Shown: positions 56,126 to 63,434 of the stretch, one piece after another
Layout: every line of letters starts with the position of its first letter
Position numbering within the stretch: the stretch's first letter is position 1
Source of the DNA: Nibricoccus aquaticus
GTDB lineage: Bacteria > Verrucomicrobiota > Verrucomicrobiia > Opitutales > Opitutaceae
Direction of reading: 5' to 3'
Length of the DNA stretch: 64,000 bases
NCBI RefSeq assembly: GCF_002310495.1
Contig: NZ_CP023344.1
Coordinates: 4,109,501 to 4,173,500, forward strand
Notes under the pieces: model-generated
The model's database searches: none
What the model was told of the DNA's origin: nothing
Seen by the model: the letters and a program-made list of their open reading frames with translations, nothing else
Program-made: the position numbers and the translations under genes

Positions 56126-56617
56126 TTATTTGGCGCGGATGGCGGCTTGGATTTTGGCGACGTCGATTTTGTCCATTTCCATCATCGCTTCGAAGGCGCG
56201 TTTGGCGGTGTCGCCGCCTTTGGCCATGGCGTCGGTGAGGACGCGCGGGGTGATCTGCCAGTTGATGCCCCACTTGTCTTTGCACCAGCCGCAGACGCTC
56301 TTTTTGCCGCCGTTCTTGATCAGGGCGTTCCAGTATTTGTCCGTCTCCTTCTGGTTGTCCGTGGCGACCTGGAAGGAAAACGCCTCGCTGTGTTTGAACT
56401 GGGGACCGCCGTTGAGGCCGATGCAGGGGATGCCGAGGACGGTGAATTCGACGGTGAGAATCTGGCCCTTCTTGCCTCCGCCCGGAAAGTTGGACGGGGC
56501 CTTGTGGACGGCGGTCACTTTGCTGTTGGGAAAGGTCTTCGCGTAGAACTTCGCGGCCTTGAGCGCGTCTTTGTCGTACCAGATGCAGACGATGTTTTTT
56601 GGAGTCCGTTTTTTCAT
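56126..56617 (-). CDS. VOC-superfamily protein (PhnB-like)
   Basis: The 163-residue protein fits the PhnB-like branch of the vicinal oxygen chelate superfamily, once annotated as 3-demethylubiquinone methyltransferase. It shows NIVCIWYDKDALKAAKFYAK, ILTVEFTVLGIPCIGLNGGP and SVCGWCKDKWGINWQITPRV. The fold is a paired beta-alpha-beta-beta-beta module; the metal ligands and reaction are not clear. It is the last ordinary G+C-rich gene before the A+T-richer island. Confidence 0.9.
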   Translation of the reverse strand: MKKRTPKNIVCIWYDKDALKAAKFYAKTFPNSKVTAVHKAPSNFPGGGKKGQILTVEFTVLGIPCIGLNGGPQFKHSEAFSFQVATDNQKETDKYWNALIKNGGKKSVCGWCKDKWGINWQITPRVLTDAMAKGGDTAKRAFEAMMEMDKIDVAKIQAAIRAK

Positions 56618-57272: not shown

Positions 57273-59153
57273 TCAGTCCTTCCGGATGGAAACGAGTGTT
57301 CCGAGGTGAGCTTTGTTTTCGGCGCGTTTTTTCTTCTTGTAGCCGAGCGTATCGCAAACCGCTTCGACCTTCTGGCAGAAAATATCTGCGTTCAGCGGCG
57401 TCATCCACAGTTCGTCCGGCTTTCCATCTCTGTTGGTGGATTGCCACTGGGTTTCGTCATCCAAGGGATGCTCGGGCCTGAACGGGCGGATATTGAAAAT
57501 CTTATGATCTATCTGCGTGATCCAAGCGGCGCCCACCTCTGTGATCGCTCCCCAAGAAACCTTAGTGTTCTCACTGGTAATGAAGAGAGCGAAAATCTTT
57601 TGATCCGAGTAACTCTCGATGAAGAAGTCGCGCAGGTATTCATAGACATGGCGCCCTTCCGGAATGCGACAGACCTCATCGTCGCAGTTAGTGTATAGGA
57701 TGTCCTCGGAAGACACGTTGTTGAACACTAGCATCGCATGCACGATGTCCGCGAACGATTTGTCCGGTAACGTCTGACTGATCAAAATCCTCTTCTTCTG
57801 GGAATCTACGAGCCGCTTCAGTCCAAGGTTGGGAGAGTTCTGATTGATCGAATCCAAGACGATTTTCTCAAGTGACTCCAACGGCATCTTTACCCCGAGC
57901 TTGGCGAGATTTTTTGCGGCCGCCTTGCTCGCAGTCCCACGAAAATCGTCGAAGGCGACCCTGAGGTTTTCTTCGTCCTGCTTCTGTTTCTCTTCCTTTT
58001 TTAGCTTTTTATCAGTGTTTCTGAGGTCTGTGAAAGTATCCCGGCGCCTGAGGATGTCTGCCAAGAGATCACGCCTCACGTACTCAAGGAGCGCGACGTA
58101 ACGGGGATCGTCGGATTTATAACCCTGTCTGTTGCTCAATGCCATGTCCGGCAATTCCGTGAGCTCGAACAGATCGACGTGAAGCTGCCCGACCACATAG
58201 ACCTCGTTCAGTTTGTTTTGGCCGACGACGGGAAGAATGTTGAATTCGCCCATCTTTCCATTCGCGAACAGAGAGATGAAGTTGTCAGGGAAATCCGTCA
58301 TCTCGGCCTTCCGGCCCTTCGTGCTCTGGTAGGTGCCGATCCATCCATTGATTTCGAGGGAATATTCATGCTCGGCTCCTTTATTGTCCGTCAACGACAG
58401 CGGAATCGCTTTCGTCGGATAGGTGCCGACCAATTCCTTCCGCTTTTTCGGAAAAGTGTTCGGAACCAGATCGCCCAGCGAGGCATAAGCCCTGCCGAGG
58501 GTGATGAGCGTGATGAGCTCAGTCATGATGTTCCGGTCGAAATCTTTTATCACCTCCGACTCCTTGCCTCTGATGATGTGGATTTTGAAATCCTTACTTA
58601 CCAAGGGAAATATTTTCAGGAGATTGCGCTTCACGGCGGTAAGCGAATTGTGCAACCGATATTGCGGAGCCTTCATCACGATGGCCGTTCCGTGTTTCGT
58701 TATGTGTTCGAACTCAATTTTGTCCTCGGGGATTGCGCGAAGCTTGCGGTCTTTCTCAATTCTCCGAGATAGGACGAATCCCGACTTGTCACCACCTGCG
58801 ATGGTCATGACATCGACATTCTCCGATACAGAAAGGGCGGCCAGCTTGCCTACTCCCTTGCGCCCCATCTTTTTTCGTTTGTGCGATTTGGTAGTGGAGT
58901 CTGTCTCCGTTGTTCGTGATTCGGCGGCGACGTCCAAATACCGTCTGACATCGCCTTTCGCGTAGGACATTCCGTGGCCGTCGTCTTCCACGCGGATGTC
59001 GTCTTTGTTCGAGATGATGTAAACATTCTTCGCGTCGGCGTCGTAAGCGTTAGCGATAAGCTCGGCCAATACGTAGTAGATGTTTGTGTATAGGTTCGGT
59101 CCCAATAGCTCCAGTATCCGTGGGTCGATGCTGATTTCGTATTCCTTACTCAT
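57273..59153 (-). CDS. GHKL (MORC/Hsp90-like) ATPase with C-terminal TIR domain
   Basis: The 626-residue protein has an N-terminal GHKL ATPase: the N-box ELIANAYDADA (31-41), G1 VEDDGHGM (55-62) and G2 GRKGVGKLA (97-105). A second domain of the S5-like type spans about 205-345 (FPDNFISLFANGK, NRQGY). A charged, coiled-coil-like stretch is at 375-400. Residues 454-610 read as a bacterial TIR domain: KRILISQT as strand A, EDILYTN, RIPEGRHVYEYLRDFF, IFALFITSEN and SWGAITEVGAAW (533-544) with the putative catalytic Glu539. It lies between the methyltransferase and vsr genes on the same strand. I infer a defence role: ATPase as sensor, TIR as NAD+-consuming effector. Confidence 0.85.
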   Translation of the reverse strand: MSKEYEISIDPRILELLGPNLYTNIYYVLAELIANAYDADAKNVYIISNKDDIRVEDDGHGMSYAKGDVRRYLDVAAESRTTETDSTTKSHKRKKMGRKGVGKLAALSVSENVDVMTIAGGDKSGFVLSRRIEKDRKLRAIPEDKIEFEHITKHGTAIVMKAPQYRLHNSLTAVKRNLLKIFPLVSKDFKIHIIRGKESEVIKDFDRNIMTELITLITLGRAYASLGDLVPNTFPKKRKELVGTYPTKAIPLSLTDNKGAEHEYSLEINGWIGTYQSTKGRKAEMTDFPDNFISLFANGKMGEFNILPVVGQNKLNEVYVVGQLHVDLFELTELPDMALSNRQGYKSDDPRYVALLEYVRRDLLADILRRRDTFTDLRNTDKKLKKEEKQKQDEENLRVAFDDFRGTASKAAAKNLAKLGVKMPLESLEKIVLDSINQNSPNLGLKRLVDSQKKRILISQTLPDKSFADIVHAMLVFNNVSSEDILYTNCDDEVCRIPEGRHVYEYLRDFFIESYSDQKIFALFITSENTKVSWGAITEVGAAWITQIDHKIFNIRPFRPEHPLDDETQWQSTNRDGKPDELWMTPLNADIFCQKVEAVCDTLGYKKKKRAENKAHLGTLVSIRKD

Positions 59154-59294: not shown

Positions 59295-60380
59295 TCAGCG
59301 CTTAGTTGGAATCGGCGCTGCTTGAAGACTGTCGATATGGTGGCGGAATGACTTTCCGATGACTTCGCCCAAGCGCACAGGCACTGCGTTACCTACCAAG
59401 CGACCAATGGCCTTCATATAGATAGGCTGGTTCGGCTCCACGAAGCGATACGTGCGCGGAAAACTCTGGATGATTGCACCCTCGCGTAATGAAATCGCGC
59501 GATCCTGTTCAGGATGTCCAAACCGCCCGTTTCCAAACCCAAAAAACTGGGTGGTAATTGTCGGGGCAGGCTCATCCCATGACATGCGACCATAAACGCT
59601 GGGGTATGTCTTGCCGCTTTTCTTCCTGTGGCACTTGGCAACAAGTTCATTGGGCCAATCGCGCCAAGTACCACTGGGCTTCGATGCGCGAATTCGCTTC
59701 AGATTCAGGGGCGACAGCTCGGACGATTGATGAATCGGATCTGACTTATCAACACCACCTGACGCGAGCACGGGAAGATCGCTGAGGGCGTCGCGGACTG
59801 TCTTGGTGCGATTTCTGAAATGTGAAGGAGGCAGGAGGTCAATTTTACCAAGCCGAGAAGCCATGACTACGAGTCGTGAGCGCTGTTGTGGAATACCGTA
59901 GTCTTCGCAGCGCACGATCTTTTCGGCGGTGTGATAGCCCGATTCGTGGAGAAATCCCAGGAATTCACCGAATACAGTATGCTCAGCGAGCCCGGGAACG
60001 TTCTCCATCGTAACCAGCTCGGGATTGAGTTCGCGTACTACCCGCAAAAATTCCCGGAGCAGCCACCACCGACTATCGGTTTTGTCGGCTTTCTGATTAT
60101 ATGTTGAGAACGTCTGACAAGGTGCGCATCCGGCAATCAAGCGAATGGATTCGTCCGCAACGAAGTGAGATGCGAGTTCTGCCGTCTTGATTTCACGGAC
60201 ATCTTTCAGGAGGCAAGGCGCAGAATTGTTGTATTCGTAAGGGTATTGGCAGGCAGGATCGACATCAACGCCCAGACGCACCTTCACGCCTGCTTTTTTG
60301 AGGCCGCAAGTCAGCCCGCCCGCGCCGCAAAATAGATCAACTGCTTGGATGCCCCGCTCAAGAACGTGTCGCCTTTTCAT
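59295..60380 (-). CDS. DNA C5-cytosine methyltransferase
   Basis: The 361-residue enzyme methylates cytosine at C5 in a specific DNA site. Motif I is DLFCGAGGL (15-23), motif IV is GCAPCQTFS with the catalytic Cys88, motif VI is MENVPG (125-130), motif VIII is QQRSRLVV and motif X is GRLVGNAVP. The variable region between motifs VIII and IX is about 100 residues, enough for one target-recognition domain. Its start overlaps the HNH gene by 23 bp, so the two are coupled. The target sequence is unknown. Confidence 0.95.
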   Translation of the reverse strand: MKRRHVLERGIQAVDLFCGAGGLTCGLKKAGVKVRLGVDVDPACQYPYEYNNSAPCLLKDVREIKTAELASHFVADESIRLIAGCAPCQTFSTYNQKADKTDSRWWLLREFLRVVRELNPELVTMENVPGLAEHTVFGEFLGFLHESGYHTAEKIVRCEDYGIPQQRSRLVVMASRLGKIDLLPPSHFRNRTKTVRDALSDLPVLASGGVDKSDPIHQSSELSPLNLKRIRASKPSGTWRDWPNELVAKCHRKKSGKTYPSVYGRMSWDEPAPTITTQFFGFGNGRFGHPEQDRAISLREGAIIQSFPRTYRFVEPNQPIYMKAIGRLVGNAVPVRLGEVIGKSFRHHIDSLQAAPIPTKR

Positions 60381-61131
60381 CTGTGATATTCCCGACGATG
60401 TCCATTCGCCAGCACACTTCGCAAGCCAAGTATTCCCTCACCACGATGCGAATTACGATACCTCCCGCATCGTCGATGGCTAGATAACGGTAGTTGCCCT
60501 CCTGGACTTCGACCCAGTCATTTATCAGCATTCGGACTCTAGATTCTTTGCCATCACCTGAATTGAGTACCATCTCGGTAACGAGCAGTCGCTGCAGTCC
60601 GCGAGAGCCCACCTCTCCAAACATTTTTTGCTCATGGAAGGCATTGAACGCGTCTCTGACATCGCTAGGTAAAGTAGCGAGCGGGCCACACCAGAAATGG
60701 TCGGGGGGCTCACGGCACGGTTGGCTCAACTCATAAGCTGCATGCCCCCTAGCTAGCTTGAGCAGAACATTCGCGACGCGGTCTTGTTCGACAGCAAACT
60801 CAACGGTGTTGGTGGACTGGCGCTTCGCGCTCTCAATTCTAGCCCGCAGCGCAGGAGAGTTTCGGAGAATCCGAGCAACGGAGGGACGGGATATTTTGTC
60901 GGGCTCTGCTGAGCCGGAGAGAACGGCATCGACTAAGCATACGAGATACTCCTCATCCTTGGAGAAACTCTGATTACAGGTCTGGCAGCACCCGATGACG
61001 GGAAGATTTTCGGGGAATGGTTGGTCCAAGAGGCTTCGTGAAGGGATGTGGTCGCGAGTATCCGCTGGACCTGCACAGTGGATGCAGCCGTTGATCAGTC
61101 TGTTGTCGGCGAAGTCTTTTAGCTGATCCAT
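60358..61131 (-). CDS. HNH-type zinc nuclease
   Basis: The 257-residue protein has an N-terminal HNH-like module with CIHC (16-19), DHIPSRSLL with Asp27 and His28, LPVIGCC, then CQTCN (49-53) and an acidic residue pair near 60. This is the four-cysteine form of HNH nucleases. The other 180 residues have no family I recognise and may bind DNA. It is the first gene of the island's minus-strand group and overlaps the methyltransferase gene. It is the best candidate for the cutting enzyme of the modification system. Confidence 0.82.
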   Translation of the reverse strand: MDQLKDFADNRLINGCIHCAGPADTRDHIPSRSLLDQPFPENLPVIGCCQTCNQSFSKDEEYLVCLVDAVLSGSAEPDKISRPSVARILRNSPALRARIESAKRQSTNTVEFAVEQDRVANVLLKLARGHAAYELSQPCREPPDHFWCGPLATLPSDVRDAFNAFHEQKMFGEVGSRGLQRLLVTEMVLNSGDGKESRVRMLINDWVEVQEGNYRYLAIDDAGGIVIRIVVREYLACEVCWRMDIVGNITDEKATRS

Positions 61132-61266: not shown

Positions 61267-63084
61267 TTACTTGCCGGATTTGCGGGCTTTTTGGCGCTCG
61301 TTGTTATTCAGGATGCGCTTGCGGAGGCGGAGGCTCTTCGGGGTGACCTCGAGGAGTTCGTCGGCGGCGATGTATTCGATCGCGCGTTCGAGCGACATCT
61401 TGGCGGCCGGGATGAGGCCGGTCGCCACACCGGAGCCTTGCGAGCGGAAGTTGGTGAGGGCTTTTTCACGGACGGCGTTACACGCGATGTCTTCGTTGCG
61501 TGGGTTTTCGCCGACGATCATGCCTTCGTACACTTGCTCGCCGGGGCCGACGAAGAGCTTGCCGCGTTCCTGCACCATCAAGAGGGCGTAGGTCGTGGTC
61601 TCGCCGGCGTCGGTCGCGATGAGCGTGCCGGTGAGGCGGGTGAGCACTTCGCCCGCGTAGGGGCCGTATTCTTTGAAGAGGTGGCTCGTGATGCCGCGGC
61701 CGCTGGTGGCGTTGATCACGTCGATCTCCATGCCGATCAAGCCGCGCGTGGTGATGGTGGCTTCGATCATCGTGGAGTGCGAAAGCTTCTCCATGTTGGT
61801 CAGCTGGCCTTTGCGGTTGGCGAGGTTCTGCATGACGGAGCCGACACACTCGTCGGGAACTTCGACCCAGACGGTCTCGTAGGGCTCGTGGCGCTGACCA
61901 TCGACGATCTTTTCGATAACGGTCGGGCGGGAGACGAGGAGCTCGAAGCCTTCGCGGCGCATGGTCTCGACGAGAACGGCGACCTGCATGGCGCCGCGTG
62001 CTTTGACGTTGAATACGCCAGCGCGGTCAGCGTCTTCGATGTAGATCGAGACGTTGGTCTTGAGCTCGCGCATGAGGCGTTCGCGGAGCTGGCGGGAGGT
62101 GACGAGCTTACCTTCCTGGCCGACGAGCGGGCCGTCGTTGACGGAGAACTGCATCTCCAGCGTGGGCGGATCAATCTGCTGGAAGGGGAGGGCGTGGGCG
62201 TCTTCGCTGACGGCGAGGGTGTCGCCGATGTCGACGTCTTCGAAGCCGGCGAGGCCGATGATGTTACCGGCGTGGGCGGTTTCGACTTCGCGCTGACCGA
62301 GGCCGGTGAACTCAAAAATCTTGGTGATCTTGGCGCGGACTTTTTTGCCACCTTCCGCGTGACGGATGACGAAGGTCGGGTCGCCGACTTTGACGACGCC
62401 GCCGAGGACTTTGCCGACGGCGATACGGCCGACGTAATCGGACCAGTCGATGTTCGACACGAGCATGTGGAAGGGATCTTCCGGCTTGGCGAAGGGTGGC
62501 GGGACGTGGTCGATGATGGTCTGGAAGAGCGGGGTCATGTCCTTCTTCTCTTCGCCGAGCTTGTACATCATGTAGCCGTCGCGGCCGGAGCCGTAAACGA
62601 CGGGGGCGTCGAACTGTTCTTCGGTCGCGTTGAGCTCCATGAGGAGTTCGAGGACCTTGTCGTACATTTTGGCCGGGTCGGCGTTGTCGCGGTCGATCTT
62701 GTTGATGACGATGACGACCTTGAGGCCGTGGGCGAGGGCCTTGCGGAGCACGAAACGGGTCTGGGCCTGGGGACCGTCGTAGGCGTCGATGACGAGGAGA
62801 ACGCCGTCGACCATGCGGAGGGCGCGTTCGACTTCGCCGCCGAAGTCGGCGTGGCCGGGGGTGTCGAGAATGTTGACGATCTTACCCTTCCAGTGGACGG
62901 AGGTGTTCTTGGCCTTGATCGTGATGCCCTTTTCCTTTTCGAGGTCCATGGAGTCCATGGCGCGGACTTCGACGGCCTGGTTGGCGCGGTACACGCCACC
63001 TTCTTTGAGGAGCTGGTCGACGAGGGTGGTTTTACCGTGGTCGACGTGAGCGATGATGGCGATGTTGCGGATGTTCTGGTTCAT
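61267..63084 (-). CDS. typA: Ribosome-binding GTPase TypA/BipA
   Basis: The 605-residue translation GTPase helps ribosome assembly and stress response. The G1 motif is AHVDHGKTTL, switch II region LDTPGHADFGGEVER, G4 VINKIDRDNADP. Domains III and V follow with TLEMQFSVNDGPLVGQEG and the TypA-specific C-terminal domain, ending in a Lys/Arg-rich tail. The ATG at 63084 gives the standard N-terminus (MNQNIRNIAII); the frame is open further upstream. It is a single-gene unit. Confidence 0.97.
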   Translation of the reverse strand: MNQNIRNIAIIAHVDHGKTTLVDQLLKEGGVYRANQAVEVRAMDSMDLEKEKGITIKAKNTSVHWKGKIVNILDTPGHADFGGEVERALRMVDGVLLVIDAYDGPQAQTRFVLRKALAHGLKVVIVINKIDRDNADPAKMYDKVLELLMELNATEEQFDAPVVYGSGRDGYMMYKLGEEKKDMTPLFQTIIDHVPPPFAKPEDPFHMLVSNIDWSDYVGRIAVGKVLGGVVKVGDPTFVIRHAEGGKKVRAKITKIFEFTGLGQREVETAHAGNIIGLAGFEDVDIGDTLAVSEDAHALPFQQIDPPTLEMQFSVNDGPLVGQEGKLVTSRQLRERLMRELKTNVSIYIEDADRAGVFNVKARGAMQVAVLVETMRREGFELLVSRPTVIEKIVDGQRHEPYETVWVEVPDECVGSVMQNLANRKGQLTNMEKLSHSTMIEATITTRGLIGMEIDVINATSGRGITSHLFKEYGPYAGEVLTRLTGTLIATDAGETTTYALLMVQERGKLFVGPGEQVYEGMIVGENPRNEDIACNAVREKALTNFRSQGSGVATGLIPAAKMSLERAIEYIAADELLEVTPKSLRLRKRILNNNERQKARKSGK

Positions 63085-63434
63085 AGCGCGTAGGGCGTTC
63101 GGATCTTTGGAAAAGGTCAGAACGTGCGGAGCGGGCTGGGGCTTGGCAAGGCCGAAGGCGGGGAGTTGCGATAAGGTGACGGAAGAGGGCAGATGCCAGA
63201 GGGCCAAATGCCGGAGGAGCTAAGGGCCGAGGGGCAAGCCGGACGGAAGTTTACCGCAGAGAGCGCGGAGGACGCGGAGACAGGAAAACTGAAGAGGCGG
63301 AATTTTTGGACAGGATTAACGGGATTAAGAGGATTGGGGAGGCGGAGGCGCAGTCGCGTGAAGGGAGCGGTGGACGCGAAGGCCGGAAATTTAACCGCAG
63401 AGATCGCGGAGATCGCAGAGGGATGCGAGGTGGG
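63085..63434. other. 350-bp intergenic region rich in phrase repeats
   Basis: Between typA and the phosphotransferase gene lie three phrases with units at about 9-nt spacing: CGCGGAG-type (63251-63284), GGATTAA-type (63311-63338) and CGCAGAG-type (63391-63421). No gene can be supported here. Confidence 0.65.

Follow-up and report, generated by a model that had tools for sequence, protein, structure and literature searches.

A GHKL ATPase-TIR fusion protein of Nibricoccus aquaticus beside a C5-cytosine methyltransferase: a candidate restriction-modification-like module with a predicted NAD+-depleting effector

What would a protein that joins an ATPase of the GHKL family to a TIR domain do beside a DNA methyltransferase? 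The question is raised by a gene of Nibricoccus aquaticus lying in a stretch of 64,000 nucleotides (contig NZ_CP023344.1, positions 4,109,501 to 4,173,500; hereafter the window), whose product, referred to below as GHKL-TIR, is encoded between genes for a C5-cytosine methyltransferase (MTase) and a Vsr mismatch endonuclease (Table 1). The initial annotation of this DNA had placed the open reading frame, which lies on the minus strand, exactly (57273-59153) and had proposed that the ATPase senses DNA state and releases TIR activity. The analysis presented here leads us to give a probability of about 0.55 to a restriction-modification-like immune module with NAD+ depletion as its effector arm, in which the C5 mark would serve as the password, the GHKL module as the reader and the TIR domain as the effector. 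Full-length homologues with 48-82% identity were found in Verrucomicrobiota, Pseudomonadota, Bacillota, Bacteroidota, Fibrobacterota, Nitrospirota, Planctomycetota, other phyla and one archaeal bin, which rules out a chance reading frame.

Domain architecture of the GHKL-TIR protein

The N-terminal part of the protein is a GHKL ATPase by several independent lines. Residues 27-154 match Pfam HATPase_c_3 (E 2.6e-19), and the NCBIfam profile of the BbrUII/HgiDII restriction enzymes (NF050001; E 2e-68) covers residues 5-419 only, corresponding to positions 1-398 of the 659 in the profile, with 231.5 bits against a curated cut-off of 550 bits. The full-length AlphaFold model (mean predicted local distance difference test, pLDDT, 80.6; predicted template modelling score, pTM, 0.60) matched the PDB structures of Hsp90, MutL, MORC3, MORC4 and gyrase B. 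In an alignment of 46 rows, including three pairs that each represent one genome under two locus identifiers, residues E31, N35, D38, D57, G59, G61, G97, R98, K99, G100, G102 and K103 are invariant (46/46). The GHKL ATP-binding boxes and the GHKL-type fold expected by the initial annotation are therefore both borne out.

The C-terminal third resembles the TIR NADase (NAD+ hydrolase) SpbK of Bacillus subtilis. Residues 421-558 match the PADLOC spbK model (E 3e-15), the pairwise sequence match to SpbK being confined to the TIR part (residues 453-560); all 45 TIR rows of alignment A3 match the same model, and a profile built from A3 retrieves SpbK from the PDB with an E value of 2.3e-13. A separate model of residues 442-626 (mean pLDDT 81.2, dropping to about 60 in the region of model residues 50-80) gave a TIR fold and not another one: SpbK was the sole Foldseek match below E 0.001 (7.7e-7) and the first in VIA-align (Z 13.2, 147 residues aligned), followed by the TIR domains of MyD88, a plant NLR, SPARTA and SARM1 with Z of about 9-11. 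The strings from which the TIR pattern had been read by eye, KRILISQT, IPEGRHVYEYLRDFF, IFALFITSEN and SWGAITEVGAAW, all occur in the protein. The Pfam TIR models, with which the initial annotation had suggested a comparison, gave no score on the window protein at E values up to 1, and PF13676 matched one divergent homologue (L062) under its cut-off (E 0.01); the TIR identity of the C-terminus is secure despite these silent models.

The proposed catalytic glutamate also held up. In the alignment with SpbK, E539 corresponds to E192, G541 to G194 and W544 to W197; all three are invariant in 46/46 rows, and E539 lies within a helix predicted at 534-546 in both models. According to the SpbK accounts, the substitution E192Q abolishes both NAD+ depletion and defence (PMC11984713), G194R and W197A impair filament formation together with NADase activity, and the active site of TIR NADases is made between two TIR domains (PMC12847820). 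The window protein is thus a predicted NADase.

The methyltransferase partner and the DISARM setting

Homologues of at least 60% identity were present in 7 of the 387 genomes sampled from the phylum of the window, that of the window included, one of them being split over two contigs. The neighbourhoods were tallied by a single tblastn count over 50 distinct loci, after merging duplicates by hand (L003/L069/L109, L004/L036/L110, L005/L041/L111 and L007/L063), omitting the partial loci L075, L077 and L073, and counting both L056 and L057, which are close relatives in separate records; absence of drm genes means absence from the available stretch, several of the contigs concerned being short. An MTase of the window type, belonging to one clade, is encoded on the same contig in 45/50 loci, drm genes in 16/50, and Vsr, which adjoins the fusion gene in the window, is found nearby in 19/50. 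The link of the fusion gene with a C5-MTase, noticed in the window, recurs in many phyla and in one archaeal bin. Among the 34 loci without drm genes, 23 have the MTase within 100 bp of GHKL-TIR, and 4-bp stop/start overlaps of the two genes occur in L045, L050 and L053.

Four of the five loci without an MTase on the same contig (L039, L047, L065 and L071) end at a contig start or end inside the operon, and the contig of the fifth (L072) stops about 0.4 kb beyond DrmB. The genome of L072 has a single strong MTase match, on a different contig and next to a drmC-like piece at the end of that contig (L132), and the genome of L065 has its MTase on a contig that ends in DrmMI (L131), separate from the one with GHKL-TIR; the available genome sequences of L039 and L071 gave no strong match. 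Thirteen genomes were searched whole for the window-type MTase: 11 have a strong match, 10 of these just one, and G391 has a second, weaker one (E 3e-71), so the proximity of the two genes is not a matter of chance. The pairing is weaker in L062 (MTase on the opposite strand) and L068 (2.7 kb away, opposite strand), and the rows of L107 and L062 sit on long branches.

MTases of the same clade also accompany GHKL restriction enzymes. Six enzymes exceed the curated cut-off of the BbrUII family (L078, L079, L080, L121, L163 and L164); L121 ends at the contig end, and the other five each adjoin an MTase of the window clade, 51-55% identical to that of the window. In the MTase tree (50 rows), the rows of these five do not form one group: the partner labels need 4 changes, at least 2 of which are forced by starred branches, and the MTases of L078, L079 and L080 form a 100/99 clade with that of the TIR-partnered L044. 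Judging from these five sequences, and with label shuffles giving equally low counts in 55/500, we see a modest case that TIR-partnered and restriction-enzyme-partnered MTases are intermixed. Window residues 215-290 of the MTase, which by our own estimate represent the target-recognition region, are 53-88% identical over 15 rows of both partner types, which suggests a common target. The recognition site of HgiDII is GTCGAC. As a candidate target this hexamer was set aside: it occurs 12 times against 25.7 expected in the window and is not among the eight lowest palindromes, a count that says little because the TIR form need not cut. The MTase motifs of Serratia DISARM are given as ACAC(mA)G and YMT(mC)GAKR (PMC9142583), the second of which shares the TCGA core with GTCGAC, an unproved lead. 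Related GHKL proteins bear further C-terminal ends, namely Ymh (HEPN) in L008, L082, L086, L088 and L096, adjoining methyltransferases in L008 and L096, and an SduA match under cut-off in L085.

The second setting is class 1 DISARM. Wherever drmMI is visible in the loci with drm genes, GHKL-TIR lies between drmMI and drmA. Representative neighbours were named DrmD, DrmMI, DrmA and DrmB by PADLOC models and those of the remaining loci by similarity to these; the gene after DrmB in L108 encodes a phospholipase D (PLD)-domain protein, as expected of DrmC, and has relatives of 37-59% identity in most other DISARM loci. The usual order is C5-MTase - (Vsr) - DrmD - DrmMI - GHKL-TIR - DrmA - DrmB - DrmC-like, sometimes with extra genes; in L038, the MTase is at the opposite end and on the opposite strand. 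A 4-bp overlap of the DrmMI and GHKL-TIR genes is seen in L032-L035 and others. The nearest relative of the window, G045 (GHKL-TIR 81% identical, sister of the window with 100/100 support), has the order 103 aa - C5-MTase (77%) - DrmD - DrmMI - GHKL-TIR - DrmA - DrmB - PLD gene - Vsr (73%), and the window order MTase - GHKL-TIR - Vsr is that of the G045 operon minus the drm genes. The drm references found no match in the window at E 1e-8, so that the class 1 DISARM gene set is absent from it, and DrmA had none in the whole genome at E 0.001, the other four drm genes having been searched in the window. When the window island was compared with L108 by blastn, three short matches at E 0.32 were obtained in addition to the shared genes, of which there are three; the two spacers contained none of these matches, and no drm remnant was found in them.

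A division into two fixed sub-families, one of DISARM and one of MTase type, was considered and dropped, since the same MTase lies upstream of DrmD in DISARM loci. In the unrooted GHKL-TIR tree without the unlabelled L048, DISARM versus C5-MTase-only labels need 8 changes, of which a minimum of 6 (C5-MTase) or 7 (DISARM) is forced by starred branches. DrmA matches were found in 24 of the 387 genomes of the phylum and are strong (E 0) in eight, four of which carry GHKL-TIR in the operon (G045, G080, G126 and G376). In G104, the only one of the 387 with a protein over the BbrUII-family cut-off, such a GHKL enzyme (L121 1-1722) is encoded upstream of DrmA with two genes between; G226 and G332 hold other genes in the operon, including a 647-aa Schlafen/HATPase_c_4 gene in G332, and G191 ends at a contig end. 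Plasmid p96k of Deinococcus sp. AJ005 (L168 20593-24302) has the order DrmD - DrmMI (annotated MmeI-like) - DrmA - DrmB (annotated DUF1998) - DrmC - Vsr - C5-MTase - GHKL protein, the last of which aligns with the restriction enzyme of L079 at 35% identity over 99% of its length. On plasmid pR24_2 of Microvirga terrae (L169 11567-13981), an ATP-binding protein of 471 aa, the start of which is GHKL-like by eye, stands in place of GHKL-TIR between DrmMI and DrmA, together with a gene annotated as O-methyltransferase. From these few loci, the DrmMI-DrmA slot looks like a place for exchangeable cargo. The Ereboglobus/G080 DISARM operon also has, between DrmMI and GHKL-TIR, an AbiGi-like gene (L109 8957-9760, L069 5014-5817), the L069 copy of which was matched by PADLOC with an E value of 4.3e-30.

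Proposed mechanism and competing explanations

In the proposed mechanism, the C5-methyltransferase would mark the sites of the host itself, and Vsr, where present, would mend deamination damage due to 5-methylcytosine. The GHKL-TIR protein would be an alternative to the BbrUII/HgiDII-type GHKL restriction enzyme that uses the same MTase clade. GHKL modules dimerise upon ATP binding; on meeting incoming DNA without the mark, the module would bind ATP and close as a dimer, so that the C-terminal TIR domains would meet head to tail and create the NADase site, and the ensuing drop in NAD+ would stop the infected cell. In a large sub-clade, the module would work inside a class-1-type DISARM operon, presumably adding a suicide branch to it, and the window would represent the stand-alone form. 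DNA-state sensing, gating by dimerisation, toxicity and phage defence are all predicted properties of GHKL-TIR, and an ATPase that reads DNA state and releases TIR activity, as the initial annotation had it, would fit the data. There are precedents for the parts: unmethylated DNA stimulates the DrmAB ATPase of DISARM more strongly than DNA with 5-methylcytosine does (PMC9142583), and in VcSduA, which combines a GHKL module with an effector end, ATPase or nuclease mutants each abolish defence (PMC12137116). A more specific version, which we put forward tentatively and at somewhat less than even odds, is a type II-like restriction-modification system with cell death as its outcome, in which GHKL-TIR would read the site of the MTase and answer missing methylation by NAD+ depletion, and whose cassette would have both entered and left class 1 DISARM, serving there as a suicide arm.

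Several observations weigh against this interpretation. The histidine of the TIR Hx[ST]xD motif, H120 in SpbK, is replaced at residue 460 by glutamine in 41/46 rows and retained in 5/46, which might mean an altered substrate or rate. The GHKL modules of the TIR and restriction-enzyme types are just about 27-30% identical, so that any swap concerned whole proteins or is ancient. The MTase of L048 lies on the opposite strand at a distance of 11.5 kb. The assembly and sensing steps are drawn by analogy, and the analogues do not all point the same way: VcSduA protects while sparing cell viability (PMC12137116), so a GHKL reader alone does not imply suicide, and the closest relative with a solved structure, SpbK, responds to a phage protein and not to DNA (PMC11984713, PMC12847820). 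Moreover, the DISARM of 16/50 loci has a DNA sensor of its own, DrmAB, and the GHKL protein therefore need not sense DNA.

The last two points lead to the strongest rival, a guard or back-up function, in which GHKL-TIR would watch its partner machinery (the MTase or DrmAB) or a phage protein and kill the cell once the first line is inhibited. PrrC is such a guard-type killer, tied to a type I enzyme. The embedding of the gene with DISARM, the service of one protein family in both minimal and DISARM settings, and an SpbK-like TIR, SpbK itself answering to a phage portal protein (PMC11984713, PMC12847820), are all in its favour, whereas the constant MTase partner and the restriction-enzyme alternatives with MTases of the same clade point to methylation as the shared signal; we regard a guard as unlikely, albeit a serious contender. 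The TIR domain could instead be a signal producer. In Thoeris, a TIR-made messenger of the cyclic adenosine diphosphate ribose (ADPR) type activates another protein. Such a role would agree with the products of SpbK, which include N1-cADPR as well as ADPR (PMC12847820), and is made improbable by the neighbourhoods, where no gene cluster other than the MTase, Vsr and the drm genes is common to more than 4 of 51 loci, a result that leaves room for a receiver encoded elsewhere.

Quite improbable, in our judgement, is the role proposed for a related TIR domain in 2008, that of a nuclease or an allosteric site: nuclease-type ends on GHKL relatives (BbrUII, and the SduA match under cut-off mentioned above) and the substituted histidine speak for it, but the matches of all TIR rows to the NADase SpbK and the invariance of the NADase glutamate and the two assembly residues speak for enzymatic NAD+ cleavage. 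It is very improbable, and the least probable of these alternatives, that the window locus consists of the decaying remains of a DISARM system and no longer has a function. Its order does equal that of the DISARM operon of its nearest relative minus drmD, drmMI, drmA, drmB and the PLD gene, and its genome lacks drmA; against this, its three genes are intact, with nonsynonymous differences per site (pN) relative to G045 of 0.109 in GHKL-TIR, 0.155 in the MTase and 0.189 in Vsr and synonymous ones (pS) of 0.76-0.82, at or past saturation in all three, in a two-genome comparison that is not assignable to the window branch alone. The two halves of GHKL-TIR have similar pN values (0.097 and 0.110), and the protein is strongly conserved. 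The branches of the window (0.17) and of its sister (0.13) are of similar length, and 33 other loci, some on short contigs, likewise show no drm genes in the available stretch.

If the restriction-modification-like interpretation is true, an MTase clade common to GHKL restriction enzymes and GHKL-TIR would unite restriction-modification and abortive infection, usually viewed as separate defence lines, in one exchangeable design, and with such a system one could test directly whether a suicide enzyme can be gated by a methylation mark. The DISARM loci suggest that some class 1 operons hold an overlooked predicted NADase, which would bear on DISARM action and on the definitions used by defence finders.

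Known systems and the window locus

The initial annotation knew of no characterised system joining the two domains. This stands as far as experiment is concerned, no experimental characterisation having been found in the literature search, and does not stand for the domain pair: a GHKL-TIR fusion near methylases and Vsr was described computationally as paraMORC4 by Iyer, Abhiman and Aravind in 2008, with the proposal for its TIR domain discussed above (PMC2292703). That family likewise consists of a GHKL and S5 ATPase fused to TIR, and its species list includes a Marinobacter sp., a genus represented here by the homologue L066. It differs in its reported conserved Hx[ST]xD (PMC2292703); the window reads QTLPD at this position after the first TIR strand, departing from the motif, and strict membership in the published family is therefore not claimed, the architecture being the same. 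The consulted parts of that account mention neither DISARM nor an MTase clade common to restriction enzymes nor NADase activity (PMC2292703). These three elements are also absent from the literature found, and no work joining DISARM, a TIR domain and GHKL was retrieved, in a search that did not extend to bioRxiv and most subscription journals; the domain pair is thus already known, and its setting, with one MTase clade and DISARM, appears to be new.

Of the other known systems, the BbrUII/HgiDII enzymes share the GHKL module, MTases of one clade and sometimes Vsr, the BbrUII-type locus L079 even having the window order MTase - GHKL enzyme - Vsr, and differ in their C-terminus, which in the window protein is replaced by TIR. 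SpbK is the closest TIR by sequence and fold and keeps the same catalytic glutamate and two assembly residues; it has another N-terminal sensor, which binds the phage portal protein, in place of GHKL, and the parts of the SpbK accounts consulted do not speak of an ATPase or a methyltransferase as its partner (PMC11984713, PMC12847820). VcSduA/paraMORC3 (GHKL-Shedu nuclease) and GHKL-Ymh likewise combine GHKL with a C-terminal effector, which is a nuclease or a predicted RNase and not TIR; GHKL-HEPN was described in 2013 (PMC3710099). Class 1 DISARM (DrmD, DrmMI, DrmA, DrmB and DrmC) hosts GHKL-TIR in the loci described above, and the window and 33 other loci show none of its genes in the available stretch. 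The PADLOC definition of type I DISARM comprises five core genes, GHKL-TIR not among them (PMC9252829).

The DrmA encoded at L123 aligns with the solved DrmA 7s9v over residues 5-1341 with 2399 bits. This structure is probably that of the DrmA of Serratia DISARM. Because the two proteins are so similar, the studied Serratia operon may itself hold a GHKL-TIR gene, which would limit the novelty; auxiliary genes are mentioned in the paper on Serratia sp. SCBI DISARM (PMC9142583). Screening 394 genomes from the order to which G768 belongs for a close DrmA turned up one match (42%), and complete genomes of E. coli gave no DNA match to the L123 DrmA gene.

Table 1. Features of the window locus, with positions counted from the first letter of the window
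Feature	Position	Strand	Evidence
GHKL ATPase - S5-like - long helix - TIR fusion protein, 626 aa	57273..59153	-	Open reading frame; Pfam, NCBIfam and PADLOC; AlphaFold model; pN/pS
GHKL ATPase, S5-like and long-helix part, residues 1-420	57894..59153	-	NCBIfam profile, alignment, model
TIR domain, residues 442-626	57276..57830	-	SpbK matches in sequence, profile and fold
Dcm-type C5-cytosine methyltransferase, 361 aa, constant partner	59295..60380	-	Pfam PF00145 E 1e-51; clade tree; same-contig tally
Vsr mismatch endonuclease, 148 aa	56735..57181	-	TIGR00632 E 3.7e-44, over cut-off
HNH-like protein, 257 aa, optional accessory	60358..61131	-	PF14279 E 0.01, under cut-off (weak)
TypA/BipA-like gene, flank of island	61267-63207		Identified by eye
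3-dmu-9_3-mt gene, other flank of island	56126-56617		Pfam

The DNA-modification island recognised earlier is present as such: the HNH-like (a weak match), C5-MTase, GHKL-TIR and Vsr genes lie side by side on the minus strand and are transcribed in this order, the HNH-like gene overlapping the MTase start by 23 bp. The G+C content of the block (52.3% versus 60.3% for the window) would suit an acquired island. A relative of the HNH-like gene (36%) sits between DrmD and DrmMI in L110 15059-15760 (= L036 1111-1812), and this gene may be another piece common to the minimal and DISARM settings; a closer relative (56%) is found in L106, near a different GHKL gene.

Three further observations concern the homologous loci. 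In the Bacillota loci L051, L056, L057 and L058, a second C5-MTase (26-28% identical to that of the window), a conserved 317-aa protein and a distant Vsr are encoded just upstream of the MTase. Phage records yielded only a distant GHKL protein, annotated ParaMORC3, and an IMG/VR viral contig (L134 7989-11502) carries GHKL-TIR, Vsr and MTase in this order, with no drm genes in the available stretch. Finally, in a Rikenellaceae bin (L060 5998-7868), GHKL-TIR occupies two overlapping frames, indicating a frameshift or a mis-assembly.

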